From positions 1-64,000 of the forward strand of contig NZ_BAOL01000003.1 in NCBI RefSeq assembly GCF_000350145.1: DNA of 64,000 nt, in the 5' to 3' direction. The notes under the pieces were generated by a model. That model ran no database searches. It saw nothing but the letters and a program-made list of their open reading frames with translations, and was not told the origin of the DNA. Positions 49,581 to 56,646 of this stretch are shown one piece after another. Made by a program: the position numbers and the translations under genes. The number at the start of each line of letters is the position of its first letter. Position 1 is the stretch's first letter. Source of the stretch: Ilumatobacter nonamiensis YM16-303 (lineage in GTDB: Bacteria; Actinomycetota; Acidimicrobiia; Acidimicrobiales; Ilumatobacteraceae).

Positions 49581-49629
49581 GTTCTCGTCGCGCTTGCGCC
49601 CGCTACCCGGGCCAGAACGCGACCAGAAC
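49581..49629. repeat. 49-nt intergenic palindrome, copy 1
   Basis: Left arm GTTCTCGTCGCG and right arm CGCGACCAGAAC (one mismatch) enclose a GC-rich middle with its own CCCG/CGGG pairing. It lies between convergent genes (serine hydrolase and PHP protein). Confidence 0.8.
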
Positions 49630-49671
49630 CCAGTCCAGCTGCGGTGCCCGCTCCCGTCCGCCCGCACCTTC

Positions 49672-49720
49672 GTTCTCGTCGCGTTTGCGCCCGCTACCCG
49701 GGCCGATACGCGACGAGAAC
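49672..49720. repeat. 49-nt intergenic palindrome, copy 2
   Basis: Left arm GTTCTCGTCGCG, right arm CGCGACGAGAAC; the central 15 nt are identical to those of copy 1, 43 nt away. It ends 16 nt before the stop of the PHP gene. Confidence 0.85.
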
Positions 49721-49735
49721 GGCTTCGGCTGCGCG

Positions 49736-50755
49736 TCACGCGGCGGCGCGGGTCCATTCGAGCAGGTCGTCGACCGGCTTCGTGTTCAAGATTCGGTCGA
49801 TCGGAACATTGCAGTCCGCCGCACGGTCACAACCGAGCGCCTGCCATTCGAGCTGACCCGTCGCGTGGGCATCGGTGTCGATCGTGAACCAACACCCGTA
49901 CTCGACCGCGAGTCGCAACAGGTCCCGTGGCGGATCCAACCGCTCGGGACGGCAATTGATCTCGACGGCCGTGTTGAACTGAGCGCACGCGGCGAACACG
50001 TAGTCGGCGTCGAAATCGCTCGGCGGACGCTTGCCGATCATCCGACCGGTGCAGTGCCCGAGGATGTCGACGTGCGGTGACGCGATCGCCTGCAACATCC
50101 GCTCGGTCATCTGCTGCTTCTCCATCCGCAGCTTGGAGTGAACGCTCGCCACGACGACGTCGAGCCGTTCCAGCATCTCGTTCGACAGATCGAGAGCGCC
50201 ATCCTCGAGGATGTCGACCTCCATCCCGGACAGGATCTGGAAGTCGTGTCCGGCATCGGCGATCGCCTCGTTCACGGCCGCGATCTGGTCGAGTTGCTCA
50301 CTCAACCGCTCCTCGTTGAGACCATGAGCGATCGTCAGACGAGCCGAGTGGTCGGTCTGCACCATGTACTCGTGCCCGATCGCCATCGCAGTCGTCGCCA
50401 TCCGCTCGATCGGCGCTCCCCCGTCGCTCCACGTCGAATGCAGGTGACAGTCGCCGCGCAGCGCGTCGAGGTACGGACGGGCCTCGTCGCTCACTTCGAC
50501 CTGCGACGACGCCTCGATGTCGATCAAGTACGCGGGTGTCCGTCCGGCGAGCGCGTCCGAGATGACCTGCGCGGTCGACGAACCGATGCCGTCGAGGTCG
50601 GTCAGCGTGTCGTTCTCGGCCCGGCGGACGAGCTCGTCCGGGTCGGTCGAACGCACGACGTCGATGGCACGTACGAACGCTTTGGTCTTGAAACCGGATG
50701 CCCGCGAGCGGTCGAGGCAGTGGATCACGCGTAGGAGCGCGGCCTCCGGTGTCAT
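49736..50755 (-). CDS. PHP-domain phosphoesterase with helix-hairpin-helix (PolX-like)
   Basis: The 339-residue protein begins with a DNA polymerase beta-type helix-hairpin-helix region (AIDVVRSTDPDEL ... DTLTDLDGIGSSTAQVISDAL) and continues with a PHP domain: GDCHLHSTWSDGG, QTDHS, GMEVDIL, SVHS, GHC and DTDAHA supply the metal ligands. It corresponds to the end pieces of bacterial PolX without the central polymerase palm. A DNA-end or nucleotide phosphatase role is likely. Palindromic repeats flank both ends. Confidence 0.83.
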   Translation of the reverse strand: MTPEAALLRVIHCLDRSRASGFKTKAFVRAIDVVRSTDPDELVRRAENDTLTDLDGIGSSTAQVISDALAGRTPAYLIDIEASSQVEVSDEARPYLDALRGDCHLHSTWSDGGAPIERMATTAMAIGHEYMVQTDHSARLTIAHGLNEERLSEQLDQIAAVNEAIADAGHDFQILSGMEVDILEDGALDLSNEMLERLDVVVASVHSKLRMEKQQMTERMLQAIASPHVDILGHCTGRMIGKRPPSDFDADYVFAACAQFNTAVEINCRPERLDPPRDLLRLAVEYGCWFTIDTDAHATGQLEWQALGCDRAADCNVPIDRILNTKPVDDLLEWTRAAA

Positions 50756-50786
50756 ACCTGCGATCGTAGCGAGGCTCCGGTCCTCC

Positions 50787-50835
50787 GTTCTCGTCGCGAA
50801 TCGACCCGCCCGCCGATCCGATGCGCGACGAGAAC
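50787..50835. repeat. 49-nt intergenic palindrome, copy 3
   Basis: Left arm GTTCTCGTCGCG and right arm CGCGACGAGAAC. It lies between the divergent PHP and lipoprotein genes. Its right arm contains an ATG (50821) in frame with the lipoprotein, which is why the coding start is set downstream at 50851. Confidence 0.85.
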
Positions 50836-50850
50836 AGTACGTTGGCCGCG

Positions 50851-51855
50851 ATGCTGCCGACCGCGTCGCTCCACGGACGCACCACGATCGTCGGCCTGAT
50901 CGCGGTCGCCCTTCTCGGCACGGCGTGCGGTGGCGGCGACTCGTCCGAGCCGGAGGTTCTCGCCGAGTTCGGCCAGGCGCAACCGGGCGACACGGTCGGC
51001 CTGATCGCCGTGGACGCCGCCGACGGCACGCGCACCGTCGAGTGGGCTTCGCGCCGAGATGGCACCATCCACCGACTCGACATCGACGATTCCGGCTCCG
51101 AGATCGAGACCGTCGCGACGGTCGACGTGGGCATCGACGGCGAGCAGCGCGGTCTGCTCGGCCAGGTGCTCATCGACGGGCGCCGCTACGCATCGTGGAC
51201 CACCCCGGACCTCGAACTGATCGTCGGGGAGATCGGCCCTTCGGCGGATCCACGCATCGTGTGGAGCGCGGGCGAGTCCGGCAGCGGAGCGATCGGCGGA
51301 GTGCTCCAGCGTGACGACGCGAGCTCCATCCTCATCGGGCTCGGGCGCAACACCGGGTGGGACACCGAGACCGGGATCGGCGGTGCGATCCTCCGACTCG
51401 ATCCCGATGCGATGCCCGACCAGGCCGAAGGAGTCGTCAGCACCGGGTACACCAACCCGTGGGCGTTTCGGGCGACGGACGACGGGTCGGCGATCTGGGT
51501 TGCGGACAACGCCGCCGGCCCCGATCCCGACGACGAGTCGCGTGACGACGTGGAGAGGATCGGGCGAGCTGACATCGAGCCGGATCGGAACGAGATGGAC
51601 GAGATCGACGAACCTGCACGCGCGCCGTCGGCGATGATCGAACTTCCGGACGGGCGACTCGGCATCTGTGGATTCCTCGACAACGAATTGCGCGCGTACG
51701 ACACCATCGACACCGATCGCGGGCGCGACACGGGTCTCGAACCGGCCGAGATCGTGATGCCCTGCAACACCGGCGCCGCCGTTTTCGACGACGGAACGAT
51801 CGTGACCGCCGCGCAAACCGACGTCGGCGAGTCGCTCCTCATCCTCCATCCCTGA
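50851..51855 (+). CDS. Putative lipoprotein with beta-propeller-like domain (sugar-dehydrogenase-like)
   Basis: The 334-residue protein has a signal segment with a possible lipobox (ALLGTAC, Cys near residue 27, imperfect at -3), then a domain with VDVGIDGEQRGLLG and GYTNPWAFRATDDGSAIWVADN, reminiscent of PQQ-type soluble glucose/aldose dehydrogenases (GSDH). The set of PQQ and Ca ligands cannot be confirmed. The start is at 50851 rather than inside palindrome copy 3. Extracytoplasmic location likely. Confidence 0.65.
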   Translation: MLPTASLHGRTTIVGLIAVALLGTACGGGDSSEPEVLAEFGQAQPGDTVGLIAVDAADGTRTVEWASRRDGTIHRLDIDDSGSEIETVATVDVGIDGEQRGLLGQVLIDGRRYASWTTPDLELIVGEIGPSADPRIVWSAGESGSGAIGGVLQRDDASSILIGLGRNTGWDTETGIGGAILRLDPDAMPDQAEGVVSTGYTNPWAFRATDDGSAIWVADNAAGPDPDDESRDDVERIGRADIEPDRNEMDEIDEPARAPSAMIELPDGRLGICGFLDNELRAYDTIDTDRGRDTGLEPAEIVMPCNTGAAVFDDGTIVTAAQTDVGESLLILHP

Positions 51856-51890
51856 CCGGTCACGCCGCGTCCTCGCGCTCCCGCCCCTTC

Positions 51891-51939
51891 GATCTCGTCG
51901 CGCATCGACCCGCATCGCGCGCAGGAACGCGACGAGAAC
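51891..51939. repeat. 49-nt intergenic palindrome, copy 4
   Basis: Left arm GATCTCGTCGCG (one change) and right arm CGCGACGAGAAC. It starts 36 nt after the lipoprotein stop; centre rich in CG. Confidence 0.8.
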
Positions 51940-51992
51940 CGAGAACGGCACACACTTCCGCACTCCTGCGTTCCGCTCGTCCCCGGCCAAGG

Positions 51993-52042
51993 GTTCTCGT
52001 CACGCATCGACCCCGCGTCGCGGGCGGGAACGCGACGAGAAC
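51993..52042. repeat. Intergenic palindrome, copy 5 (50 nt)
   Basis: Left arm GTTCTCGTCACG (one change) and right arm CGCGACGAGAAC, with CCCGCGTCGCGGG at the centre. 56 nt upstream of the next start. Confidence 0.8.
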
Positions 52043-52098
52043 CAAGCCGGTCGAACGCTGTTTCCGGTTTCGCGGCCGCGACGACCCCGTGTCAGCGC

Positions 52099-52626
52099 AT
52101 GAAGCAACTCGGACGCCGATCGATCGCGCCGCACCACCAGCGCAAGCCCAGACGCTCGCGTCAACTCGCACTCGGGAGTTGCGCGGTCGTGCTGGTCACC
52201 GCCCTCGCGATGCCCGACGAGCCGGTCACGATCGGACCGGATTGGTGCTGGCAGCACTACGCCCTCGCACCAGCGAGCGCGCTCGTGACCGACCACGGTC
52301 CGCCCTCCGCCGACGCTGCCGACGAATGGCTCACGTGGCTCGCAGCGACCGTCGACGCGCCAGCCGCTCGACGCCACGCGCACGCGGCGCAGCTGGAGTT
52401 GGTCGAGGAGCTGCGATCGGCCGGAGCCTGGACGGCCACCGAGGCACGCCGCTATCGGGAAGCAGCAGCGAGCGATCCGACGCCGGCAACCGTGTGCGAG
52501 ACGTTCGGTGCTCGGATCATTCCCGAGCCCGATGGATCCCTCCCGCCTCGGTGGGCCGACCGCTTCACCGATGCGCAGAACGCCGCGTTCTCGCAGCTTG
52601 CCGGCTCCGAGGGCGAGGCGAGGTGA
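52099..52626 (+). CDS. Secreted or membrane-anchored hypothetical protein, coupled to the adhesin gene
   Basis: The 175-residue protein has a basic N-terminus and a hydrophobic segment (QLALGSCAVVLVTALAM) that may be a signal or anchor, then an all-helical body with WCW near residue 50 and three Cys in all. Not recognised. Its stop shares a base with the start of the large surface protein (TGATG), so the two are translationally coupled and may be exported together, for example as an accessory factor. Confidence 0.6.
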   Translation: MKQLGRRSIAPHHQRKPRRSRQLALGSCAVVLVTALAMPDEPVTIGPDWCWQHYALAPASALVTDHGPPSADAADEWLTWLAATVDAPAARRHAHAAQLELVEELRSAGAWTATEARRYREAAASDPTPATVCETFGARIIPEPDGSLPPRWADRFTDAQNAAFSQLAGSEGEAR

Positions 52627-55328
52627 TGGCAACGCAGCGGCATCCTCGGGGACGGGTCGCACGGATCGCTGGTGCCATCGGCCTGCTGATCACAGTGATC
52701 GCCCTTCAGTCGGCGCGGTCGGACGAGCCGGTCGACGCCTCCGCTCCGAACCCGGGAGCGTGCGCCGGCAATCCGTCGTTCTGTGGCATCACGCTGCGGA
52801 TCGACTCCGACGCAGGCACCATCCCGTCGGTCGCCGCCGGTGCGCACTACGGACCGGCGTGGGGGATTCCGACGACGAAGAACAACTCCACCGGAGTGGG
52901 CTGGTGCGTCGACGACACCCACACAGGATTTCCCGTCGGACCGATCTCGGAACGAGCGCTGCCGACCTCCTGGACTGCCGACGAGATGCGACGAGCGGCA
53001 ACCATCATCACGCTCTACGGGGGCGACAAGGTCGTTCCGTACCAGCCGCTGCGCATCGATCGGGCCGGCGAACTGGCAGGCATCGCCACAGCGGGAATCT
53101 CCGCAACGCGACACCGTCAGATCGCCGTCTGGTTCGCGTTGCGCTCGCTGTTGCCTGACGGTGCGCGCACTCCACGGATCGACCTCGAATCGGCAGTGAC
53201 GTTCAGCGACCCCGGCGGTCGCCGGCGATCAGCGATCGGTGATTCGGCAGTACAACTCGCTCGGCGCCTGGTCGCTGTCGCCGGGGACATGACGGCCTCG
53301 GGCCGACCGACCGTCACGGTCGAGTCGACGGACGGACAACCGCCGGCGACGATCGGCGCCGCGGAAGAAGTGACCGTCCACGTTCAGGACAGGGCGGGGA
53401 ACCCGCTTCCGAACTTTCCTGTGTGGCCGTCGTCATCGACCAACGCGAACGTCGAGTCGGCGAGCAATCGAGCCGTCCGCCGATCGGTCGCCTTCCTCAA
53501 CGCTCAGGACGCCGGCTGGCCCGCACTCGGCGGGAGCCGTCGCCTCGAGGGTGCGAGCATGACCGACGCGTCGGGCAACGCGACATTCACGATCGAGGTC
53601 ACCGAACCAGGCACCTGGTCGGTCGGGTTCGAGACGTCGGCCGCGCCATCCCGCCTGCACCTGTACGGCGACGGCATCAATGCGCAGAACAACGTCTCGA
53701 CCCTCACCGCCGACATCCGGAGCGCGTCGGGCTCACTGTCCGGGGAGGTGGTCGAACGATTCGTCCGAGCGGTCAAGACCACGACCGACTCGACCTTCGG
53801 CGTGGACGGCGCCGTGTTCTCCCTCATCGATGCGAACGGAACCGAGGTGACCCGCAGGACCACCGACGACCAAGGAGTCGTCGACTTCCCGCCGATCGCC
53901 GCCCACCACCCGACGCCGCTCACGATCCGCGAGATCACCGCGCCCGTCGGCCTGGCGCTGCGTCCCGACGCCGTCGAGGTGATCGCGGACGGCGGACTCT
54001 CCACCGACCCGGACGCGCCGACCGTCGTCGAGATCGAGAACCGTCCGGTCGAGCACGACGTGACCATCCAGAAGAAGGTCGTCGGATCCCCGGGCTTCGG
54101 TCCGCAGCTCGCCGGGTTCACGTTCACCGTCACCCGCGACAGCGACGGGACGAACTTCGGGACGCTCACCACCGACGACACCGGACGAGCCTCATCTCTC
54201 GCGGTGCCCGCCGGTGACTATTCGATCCGGGAGGTCGACCGACCGGAGCGATGGCCCGGCGACGAACCGTTCCCCGAACCGATTCGTGTCGCCGTACCAG
54301 TCGACACGACCGAACCGCTCGTCGTGAGCTTCGAGAACACACTTCCACCGCCGACGATCAGAACGACGGCAACCGACCGGGCCGACGGTGACAAGTACCT
54401 GAGCGCTGCCGGCGGCGTGATCGTCGATGCCGTCGAGGTGTGTGGCGTGGTCGAGGGAACGACGTACCGGGTCGAGGGTGAGCTGATGTTCGTCGATTCC
54501 GACTCCGGGACGGTCGAACCGACCGACATCCACGCGACCGCGGAGTTCGTCGCGGCTCCTGGCGACGACGGCTGCCAGGCGTTCGAGCTCGATTTCAACG
54601 TTCCCGTCGACTCCGAGTGGCTCGACCGATCGGGGCACTTCGTCGTCGCCGAGGACCTGTTCGTCGGGGACGATCGTGTCGCCACGCACCACGACATGGA
54701 ATCGATCGAGCAGAGCGTCTTCGTCCCCACGGTCCGATCGCTGGCAGTCGATGGCGCGGACGGTGACGGATGGATCGACCTCGGCGGGGGCACCGTCGTC
54801 GAGACCCTGTGGCTGTCCGACCTCGACGTGTCCCGACCCGATGTCGAGCTCCGCGCCGACTCTGTTCTGATGACGCTGGACGCGGCCGGCGAACCGACCG
54901 CGACGAGCGCTTCGGCGTCTTCCACGTTCGCGGTCGAGGACGTCGGAGGCGGGACGCAGCCGTCGGTCGAGATCCCGTACACGTCGGCGGACCTGTCCGA
55001 CGAGGGCGGCACCGCCGTCGTGTTCACGACGATCACCGACGCGGACACCGGCCTCGTCATCGCAGAACACCACGACCCGCAGGACACCGACCAGCAGGTG
55101 CGCTGGCGCCCCGCACCCACGGAACTACCGCCCGCGGAACCCCCGACGACCGAACCTCCACACGTGTCGGCCCCGCCGTCGATCCCGCCCGACGACCTCC
55201 CCCGGACCGGCGGGGGCTCCGCTGTCCCGATCCAGCGCTGGGGAAGCGGCCTCGCGTTGCTGGGATCGTTGCTGTTCTTCGCATCAGGCACCCGCCGCCG
55301 CGACGATCCCCACCGACCCGCTCCCTGA
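52626..55328 (+). CDS. LPXTG surface adhesin with thioester (TQXA) domain and SpaA/VaFE-type repeats
   Basis: The 900-residue protein has a signal anchor (about 11-32), then a thioester-type head: Cys94 in GWCVDD and Gln165 in HRQIAVWF match the Cys and Gln of TQXA domains that form an internal thioester for covalent host or surface binding. Ig-like and prealbumin/SpaA-like domains follow (about 370-470 and 475-575), then two VaFE-like repeats (TDRADGDKYL at about 580; a degenerate one at about 690), a Pro/Thr stalk and the sorting signal LPRTG at 858-862 with a hydrophobic tail and RRR. A sortase substrate at the cell wall. No sortase gene is in the window. The ATG overlaps the preceding stop. 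Confidence 0.83.
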   Translation: MATQRHPRGRVARIAGAIGLLITVIALQSARSDEPVDASAPNPGACAGNPSFCGITLRIDSDAGTIPSVAAGAHYGPAWGIPTTKNNSTGVGWCVDDTHTGFPVGPISERALPTSWTADEMRRAATIITLYGGDKVVPYQPLRIDRAGELAGIATAGISATRHRQIAVWFALRSLLPDGARTPRIDLESAVTFSDPGGRRRSAIGDSAVQLARRLVAVAGDMTASGRPTVTVESTDGQPPATIGAAEEVTVHVQDRAGNPLPNFPVWPSSSTNANVESASNRAVRRSVAFLNAQDAGWPALGGSRRLEGASMTDASGNATFTIEVTEPGTWSVGFETSAAPSRLHLYGDGINAQNNVSTLTADIRSASGSLSGEVVERFVRAVKTTTDSTFGVDGAVFSLIDANGTEVTRRTTDDQGVVDFPPIAAHHPTPLTIREITAPVGLALRPDAVEVIADGGLSTDPDAPTVVEIENRPVEHDVTIQKKVVGSPGFGPQLAGFTFTVTRDSDGTNFGTLTTDDTGRASSLAVPAGDYSIREVDRPERWPGDEPFPEPIRVAVPVDTTEPLVVSFENTLPPPTIRTTATDRADGDKYLSAAGGVIVDAVEVCGVVEGTTYRVEGELMFVDSDSGTVEPTDIHATAEFVAAPGDDGCQAFELDFNVPVDSEWLDRSGHFVVAEDLFVGDDRVATHHDMESIEQSVFVPTVRSLAVDGADGDGWIDLGGGTVVETLWLSDLDVSRPDVELRADSVLMTLDAAGEPTATSASASSTFAVEDVGGGTQPSVEIPYTSADLSDEGGTAVVFTTITDADTGLVIAEHHDPQDTDQQVRWRPAPTELPPAEPPTTEPPHVSAPPSIPPDDLPRTGGGSAVPIQRWGSGLALLGSLLFFASGTRRRDDPHRPAP

Positions 55329-55372
55329 CCCACTTCGTCGCCCCGCCTCGACTTCGTTCTCGTCGCGCCTCG

Positions 55373-55421
55373 GTTCTGGTCGCGCTCTCGCCCGGGTTCC
55401 GGGCCGATGCGCGACGGGAAC
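55373..55421. repeat. 49-nt intergenic palindrome, copy 6
   Basis: Left arm GTTCTGGTCGCG and right arm CGCGACGGGAAC, each with one change from the consensus and mutually not complementary at those positions. An extra left arm (GTTCTCGTCGCG) lies at 55356-55367, suggesting a partial second copy inserted or lost. Confidence 0.75.
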
Positions 55422-55475
55422 GAAGTTCGCAATGCCGTTTCCTGTTCCGGTGAGTCACGACCCCGTGTGTGGGGC

Positions 55476-56411
55476 ATGAAGCTCGACACACTCGACCGCA
55501 TCGCCCGACGACAACACGGGGTCGTGGCCCGTCACCAGACCGAACTCTCGTCATCCTCATGGCAGCGGGCGACGACGAACGGGACATTCGTTCCGATCCA
55601 CCGCAACGTTGCACGACTGGTCGGAACGGCGGACACCTCGCGCCAGCGGATCGCGGCGGCGGTGCTCGCCGCAGGCGACGGGGCGCTCGCCTCCCACCGC
55701 TCGGCGGCCCTGCTGCACGGAATCCCCACGGTCGATCCTCCGCCCGTCGACGTGATCGTTCCTCGGACCCGAATGGGTGACCGGACGACCTACATCCGCG
55801 GGCTCGATGGGGTTGTCGTCCACCGACCCTCCGACCTGATGCGTCTCAAGCCGCACCGCCAGGACAACATTTCGTGCACCTCGATCCTCCGGACCCTGCT
55901 CGATCTCGGTGCCGTCGCGGCCGACGACGTCCATGGAGCGGTTGGCCATGCACTCACCAACGACCTCGCTTCCATCGCTGCGATCGAGACCGTGCTGCAG
56001 CAACACGCTCGCCGCGGACGCGCCGGAGTCACTGCGCTCCGATCGGCACTCGACGACTGGGCGATCGACGCGAAGCCGGCCGATTCCGTGTTGGAACCAG
56101 CGATGCGACGGCTCGTGTCGGCATACGGACTTCCGCCCATCGAGTTCCATCCCTTCGTCGGCGGTCGAGAGGTCGACTTCCGCGTGGTCGGCACACCGAT
56201 CGTCATCGAGTGCGACGGGTGGCGCTACCACGGTCGAGCACGTGACCAGTTCGAGCGCGATCGCGACAACGACGCCGAGTTCGCCGCCCACGGCTGGATC
56301 GTGCTCCGATTCACCTATCGCAAGATCACGACCCGTCCGAGCGACGTCGCCGCGCACATCCGCCGCGCGGTCGAACGATGGGTCGACATCCCCGCCCCCG
56401 ATGCCGCCTGA
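55476..56411 (+). CDS. AbiEi-like regulator fused to DUF559 (Vsr-like) endonuclease domain
   Basis: The 311-residue protein has an N-terminal winged-helix region of the AbiEi antitoxin type (MKLDTLDRIARRQHGVVARHQ) and a middle domain (LASHRSAALLHGIPTVDPP ... IVPRTRM). A C-terminal DUF559 nuclease-like domain has VDFRVVGTPIVIECDGWRYH, then RDQFERDRDNDAEFAAHGWIVLRFTYRKI. In actinobacteria this architecture occurs as single genes without an AbiEii toxin, and none is seen here. A defence or regulatory role is possible. Confidence 0.78.
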   Translation: MKLDTLDRIARRQHGVVARHQTELSSSSWQRATTNGTFVPIHRNVARLVGTADTSRQRIAAAVLAAGDGALASHRSAALLHGIPTVDPPPVDVIVPRTRMGDRTTYIRGLDGVVVHRPSDLMRLKPHRQDNISCTSILRTLLDLGAVAADDVHGAVGHALTNDLASIAAIETVLQQHARRGRAGVTALRSALDDWAIDAKPADSVLEPAMRRLVSAYGLPPIEFHPFVGGREVDFRVVGTPIVIECDGWRYHGRARDQFERDRDNDAEFAAHGWIVLRFTYRKITTRPSDVAAHIRRAVERWVDIPAPDAA

Positions 56412-56502
56412 CCGAGCCTGGGGCCATCGTTTCGTCCGTTCTCGTCGCGCCTCGGCGCACGATCGGGGCCATTCGCGTCGCGCCGTTTCTCATCGGACCT
56501 CA

Positions 56503-56551
56503 GTTCTCGTTGCGAATCGACCCGCGACCCGGGCAGAGACGCGACGAGAAG
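56503..56551. repeat. 49-nt intergenic palindrome, copy 7
   Basis: Left arm GTTCTCGTTGCG and right arm CGCGACGAGAAG (arms with one and two changes). It lies in the 235-nt gap before ychF. The same gap has an isolated left arm (GTTCTCGTCGCG at 56438-56449) and an isolated right arm (CGCGACGAGAAC at 56571-56582), so two decayed copies may be present. Confidence 0.78.
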
Positions 56552-56646
56552 CAAGATCGCCGAGAAGAGGCGCGACGAGAACGGCGGCAGGTCACCACGA
56601 TCGAGCGGGGCTCGTGGCGGAGCGACGTCGGTAGCCTCCCCGCTGC

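Follow-up and report, generated by a model that had tools for sequence, protein, structure and literature searches.

What kind of element fills one intergenic gap after another in the genome of Ilumatobacter nonamiensis YM16-303 with palindromes of almost constant length? In the window, by which we mean the whole 64,000-nt stretch of contig NZ_BAOL01000003.1 that was analysed, palindromes with arms GTTCTCGTCGCG and CGCGACGAGAAC cluster between 49.58 and 56.58 kb. The initial annotation took them for a mobilised family similar to bacterial REP sequences, and expected a REP-associated transposase somewhere in the genome. RAYT transposases are the usual explanation for repeats of the REP type. 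Is this family dispersed as REPs are, is it linked to a RAYT, and what keeps its arms complementary?

Results

The cluster in the window

All seven palindromes are present where they had been placed, six of them 49 nt and one 50 nt long, as are the three isolated arms, each of which is exact (Table 1). No further pair with four or fewer arm mismatches occurs in the 64 kb, in keeping with the claim that the rest of the window is free of copies. Arm matches with at most two mismatches number 57 in the window, against 33 ± 5 in shuffled sequence, and none of 100 shuffles reached 57. The palindromes are predicted to fold strongly on either strand (-22 to -34 kcal/mol), and an Rfam search of 48-58 kb gave no match near the gathering scores. 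Copies 1 and 2 are sisters, with 21 of 25 middle bases identical. That all copies lie outside genes, as first supposed, is true only with two annotated starts shifted, since at both 50821 and 55407 the longest ORF has its start within an element; later starts are plausible for both.

Table 1. Palindromes and solitary arms in the window; bit scores are those of covariance model R1 (see text).
Feature	Position	Strand	Context
Palindrome copy 1, 49 nt	49581..49629	.	convergent gap; R1 60.6 bits
Palindrome copy 2, 49 nt	49672..49720	.	convergent gap shared with copy 1; R1 70.2 bits
Palindrome copy 3, 49 nt	50787..50835	.	divergent gap; includes first ATG of downstream ORF (50821)
Palindrome copy 4, 49 nt	51891..51939	.	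tandem gap
Palindrome copy 5, 50 nt	51993..52042	.	same gap as copy 4; middle similar to copy 4
Solitary left arm, exact	55356..55367	+	17 nt before copy 6
Palindrome copy 6, 49 nt	55373..55421	.	tandem gap; includes first ATG of DUF559-type ORF (55407)
Solitary arm, exact	56438..56449	+	upstream of copy 7
Palindrome copy 7, 49 nt	56503..56551	.	gap between DUF559-type gene and ychF
Solitary right arm, exact	56571..56582	-	20 nt after copy 7

Two genes of the region may be mentioned here. The ORF at 52629-55325, between two element-bearing gaps, encodes a surface protein with T-Q ester bond and SpaA domains. That at 55407-56411 encodes a DUF559/MTES_1575-type nuclease-like protein, paralogues of which recur near elements in other genomes; this is probably coincidental, as the protein type seems abundant.

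Copy number and anatomy in the draft genome

Does the cluster stand alone? The genome-wide arm search that the initial annotation proposed, run as GTTCTCGTCGCG-N{15,40}-CGCGACGAGAAC on the 4.28-Mb draft genome, gave 14 perfect places, all of 49 nt: with the spacer free over 15-40 nt only 25 nt occurs (14/14), and the reversed control pattern had no match in the same genome. A covariance model built from these 14 perfect-arm places (R1) found about 43 full, dispersed copies, which is a lower bound because 150 of 12,356 candidates were scored, the counts resting on model searches. From the copy counts in window and genome, the cluster belongs to a genome-wide family, of which it is the densest part seen.

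The consensus in this genome is GTTCTCGTCGCG-n-WTC-nn-CCCG-N5-CGGG-nn-GAW-n-CGCGACGAGAAC. Its ends are symmetric (GTTCTC...GAGAAC), the flanks carry no one-sided GTAG/GTRG or CGTC tag, and no T-run follows the hairpin. Over 42 copies the inner arm GTCGCG/CGCGAC is nearly invariant, and the loop and its flanking bases are near saturation. The middles had been said to keep internal pairing; this stands for the CCCG/CGGG core, which is conserved, but fails for pair 17/31, which is broken in 28 of the 42 copies, pairs 18/30 and 19/29 being broken in 12 and 14. The mismatches are uncompensated and the mutual information between paired positions is close to 0 across the 42 copies, which argues that what is conserved within the genome is a symmetric sequence and not pairing as such. 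G-U mismatches do not clearly favour the sense strand, and selection on an RNA sense through G-U bias was rejected for want of a clear signal.

Might the 49-bp dyad then be the site of a sequence-specific DNA-binding protein, one concerned with nucleoid or chromosome organisation? The near-invariant inner arm, the mutual information of about 0 and the fixed spacing are what such a site would give. Against it stand the compensated changes and loop inversion of the genus with perfect stems (below), which is how a hairpin behaves, and also the seven copies in 7 kb, the adjacent sisters and the stray half-arms, which resemble local copying. We consider a binding site of this kind quite improbable.

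RAYT genes and their palindromes

A single Y1_Tnp (RAYT-type) gene was detected in the I. nonamiensis genome, so that a transposase of the expected kind exists, but the expected link to the 49-nt element does not: no copy lies in the 10 kb around the gene, and it is flanked by palindromes of a different family, CCATCSGGTGTCWGACACCSGATGG (CCATCSGGTGTCWGACACC-type; L021 9181-10188, near the end of contig C360 of genome G000). The CCATCSGGTGTCWGACACCSGATGG family is itself dispersed, with copies also at L029 4522, L036 3138, L046 6060 and L047 8647, several of them at contig ends, as is expected of a high-copy repeat. None of 31 Y1_Tnp loci examined has a 49-nt element, and many have palindromes of other kinds on their flanks. 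In the complete relative G001, which has five Y1_Tnp genes, the model detects no 49-nt copy; there a 33-nt perfect palindrome, CCGGACGGTTTGTCTCAGAGACAAACCGTCCGG, brackets the Y1_Tnp gene at 3756449-3757318 (span 3756415-3757357; L096 16415-17357) and is dispersed, with 7 copies in the 400 kb sampled (loci L080, L083, L085 and L094). It follows from CCATCSGGTGTCWGACACCSGATGG and CCGGACGGTTTGTCTCAGAGACAAACCGTCCGG that true pairs of RAYT and palindrome exist in this lineage, and that the 49-nt family is not among them.

G001 holds other palindromes as well. A 43-nt one, CCAACCTGGTTACATCGCTCCGGGAGCGATGTAACCAGGTTGG, is also repeated, and at L097 (1030-1140 and 4795-4905) local 49-nt palindromes of an unrelated kind, GTTTGTGTGACC...GGTCACCCAAAC, form two pairs whose flanks are similar, which looks like the duplication of a block.

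What remains of the proposal of the initial annotation, a classical REP/REPIN that a RAYT mobilises? Copy number, size class and location are REP-like, the genome has its one Y1_Tnp gene, and Y1_Tnp is weakly enriched among genomes that carry the family (7/39, against 11/183 of non-carriers; Fisher p = 0.02, a statistic that ignores phylogeny). In 32 of the 39 carriers, however, near-complete genomes among them, no Y1_Tnp was detected at E ≤ 1e-6, and with the five genes of G001, the other palindromes beside the RAYTs and the missing GTAG/CGTC tag this explanation is largely refuted and must be thought very unlikely. The Y1_Tnp neighbourhoods and the presence of the gene across the 222 genomes compared likewise led us to reject a RAYT as a requirement for the 49-nt family. 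A mobiliser was also sought by all-against-all comparison of the proteins encoded around elements: no neighbouring gene recurs across genera, and a recurrent neighbour as mobiliser was rejected, as nothing was found beyond ordinary orthologues and the abundant paralogues of DUF559 type.

A family with lineage-specific arms

With a second model (R2) the family was detected in 39 of the 222 genomes of the same bacterial family, which belong to 10 of its 27 genera, and the other 183 genomes had no detectable copies; one genome from another family of the order has a 51-nt form. R2 was trained on 49-mers and so favours 49 nt, and the unbiased evidence for length is the variable-spacer search of the I. 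nonamiensis genome. Across 84,980 species, a scan with a strict pattern gave 33 places, labelled mostly Actinomycetota/Acidimicrobiia, plus a few mislabelled or oddly labelled MAGs. The Acidobacteria entry REEB451 has match places identical to those of family member G089; it is the same genome and therefore a mislabelled MAG; a match also stands under the label 'Bifidobacterium breve' MaH. The strict consensus matched none of 2.9 million viral contigs.

In other lineages the arms read GTTCTCGGCGCGGTATGT, GTTCTCGGTGTGTAATTA, GTTCTGGTCGCG or CTTCTCGGTGGTTTGGTT; those of the 51-nt form read GTTCTGGTGGAGGTTCG. The opposite arm has changed to match in every case, and the tips (GTTCTSG...CSAGAAC), the centre (CCCG-N5-CGGG) and the length stay; in g8, the best-resolved genus, the stem measures 22 bp and the loop 5 nt. 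The CGTC of the I. nonamiensis arm lies within both arms and is absent from other genera. Covariation across genomes is 0.194, against 0.100 ± 0.015 in shuffles, none of 500 reaching it, and seven pairs have changed on both sides. Covariation of the arms, by which the initial annotation had proposed that its reading be judged, is thus absent within the I. nonamiensis genome and present across genomes.

Filled and empty sites

Is the element gained and lost? One orthologous intergenic site in g8 is filled in G091, G092, G087 and G095 and empty in G085, G094 and G096, three species that flank those with a filled site. At these three empty sites, whose exact borders are uncertain, no target-site duplication is visible, so that loss is as possible as gain, and orthologous copies often persist. 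Of three close pairs scored in the I. nonamiensis genome, two are sisters (22/25 and 21/25 middle bases identical), where 0.9% of other pairs reach 20 identical middle bases; the flanks of sister copies differ.

Orthologous g8 copies differ at three loci by an exact inversion of the 5-nt loop, with the stem unchanged or nearly so, one of these loci keeping asymmetric stem mismatches too, and at two g8 loci both sides of a G-C pair have changed to give C-G. Template switching between the arms of an inverted repeat is known to yield spacer inversion and arm homogenisation (PMC8604942), and on this ground we read the loop inversions and paired swaps as footprints of hairpin formation during replication. 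Because template switching can keep arms complementary, perfect pairing alone is no proof of an RNA function.

Position relative to genes

Throughout the genome, copies occupy divergent, convergent and tandem gaps alike. Five of the 43 lie within predicted genes, though about 80% of the sequence is coding; the simple gene caller used makes crude calls, and at least one of the five placements is spurious (window 56503, where the ORF is long and antisense), and a further one or two appear to be intergenic. In tandem gaps the median distance is 44 nt to the upstream stop and 128 nt to the downstream start (Wilcoxon p = 0.02).

Some copies are coding. One (C309:4963-5011; L023 4963-5011) lies in the gene of a lipoyl acyltransferase (E2), where it encodes 17 residues of an interdomain linker. 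In g8 an MFS transporter gene (L128 2053-2101; orthologues L224-L234) has the element in frame, in its central loop. Every genome that covers the site has it, distant members of the genus included, and its arms are those of the local lineage, GGTGTG in the G089 group and GGCGCG elsewhere; on sequence comparison, this is concerted arm turnover at one locus. As the MFS site is always filled and acyltransferase linkers vary in length, the coding copies give no exact border for the length of an insertion. A match inside an oxidoreductase gene (C351) may be there by coincidence, as coding sequence; a PDB search yielded no homologue.

These positions bear on a further explanation, that the family is a selected cis-acting hairpin, a bidirectional terminator or a protector of mRNA 3' ends that acts in RNA from either strand and has been recruited at many gene ends. 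The nearness of tandem copies to the upstream stop, the strong predicted folds on both strands and the frequent persistence of orthologous copies are consistent with it. Of an intrinsic terminator, which is a GC-rich hairpin with a T-run after it at the 3' end of a gene, the copies have the 3' bias and lack the T-run. Also against a selected hairpin, at least 5 of some 40 gaps are divergent and have no 3' end, some copies are inside reading frames, the G-U mismatches lack a clear sense-strand preference, and 183 of the 222 relatives lack a detectable family; the gene calls, moreover, are crude. A selected hairpin of this kind seems to us rather unlikely; a cis-acting hairpin, of RNA or DNA, is the chief rival of the reading that we prefer.

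Discussion

What, then, is the family? We think, with a probability of about 0.5, that it is a REP-like, untagged, non-autonomous mobile hairpin of this Acidimicrobiia-type order, served in trans by a putative mobiliser and owing its self-complementarity partly to template switching. The putative enzyme would recognise the tips of the hairpin, its centre or both, and would paste it into gaps, often beside an existing copy. Extrusion of the hairpin during replication, together with template switching, would preserve the pairing of the arms and invert the loop. Mobility as such we infer from presence and absence and from local sister copies. Short, dispersed, extragenic, tuned to its lineage, and gained or lost, the family would work like a REP, and the dispersed REP-like family of the initial annotation is borne out by some 43 mostly extragenic copies with a 3' bias, by gain or loss, and by adjacent sisters.

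Several observations count against a mobile element: the copy at the MFS site persists through a whole genus, unlike a fast-moving element, no mobiliser appears among recurrent neighbours, the empty sites are without duplication, and the arms do not covary within a genome. Of the features of MITEs, the inverted ends are there; the three empty sites, with their uncertain borders, have no duplication. A more specific form of the mobile hairpin, which we offer tentatively, is a new untagged class whose mobiliser would measure a 22-bp stem and 5-nt loop and read only tips and centre, so that the length would be fixed and the arms would drift in concert in each lineage.

How does the family compare with known repeats? 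Like the REP/REPIN sequences of RAYTs (PMC2817692, PMC3116915, PMC3733652), it consists of short, dispersed, extragenic palindromes in tens of copies and in clusters, with lineage-specific sequence and a bias to gene ends; unlike them it is symmetric, lacks the GTAG head, is a single length-locked hairpin and flanks no RAYT. Of what defines a GTAG-class REP, a dispersed extragenic palindrome in tens of copies is found, and a GTAG/GTRG head at one end, a rayt flanked by the same repeat and co-occurrence with rayt are not. The CGTC-tagged REPs, with an 8-9-bp stem, a 4-5-nt loop, one unpaired CGTC tag and a CCA-like tail (PMC3733652), are likewise palindromic repeats without a dedicated transposase, but the 49-nt family has a 22-bp stem and no unpaired tag. 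It shares with the palindromic elements of Rickettsia (in part PMC3733652) the ability to sit in frame within proteins, and differs from them in size, in sequence and in being predominantly extragenic. As the tested features of RAYT-linked and CGTC-tagged REPs (tags, a flanked RAYT, co-occurrence, a short stem) are lacking, we file the family as neither.

The attC sites of integrons are folded imperfect palindromes that start with RYYYAAC and end with GTTRRRY. The 49-nt element is of similar size and is also a folded imperfect palindrome, but its ends read GTT...AAC and its copies, judged by sequence, are scattered singly in gaps of all types and not between cassettes. The polarity of the ends led us to reject attC identity.

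A genome in which a RAYT with its own palindromes stands beside a RAYT-free, length-locked family makes the spread of transposase-less REPs, such as the CGTC class, a testable matter, and the related genomes are a defined set for asking how such REPs spread and persist. The exact loop inversions at orthologous sites preserve a natural trace of hairpins forming in bacterial chromosomes. There is also a warning in the family, that compensatory changes in repeats of this kind need not reflect selection on RNA.
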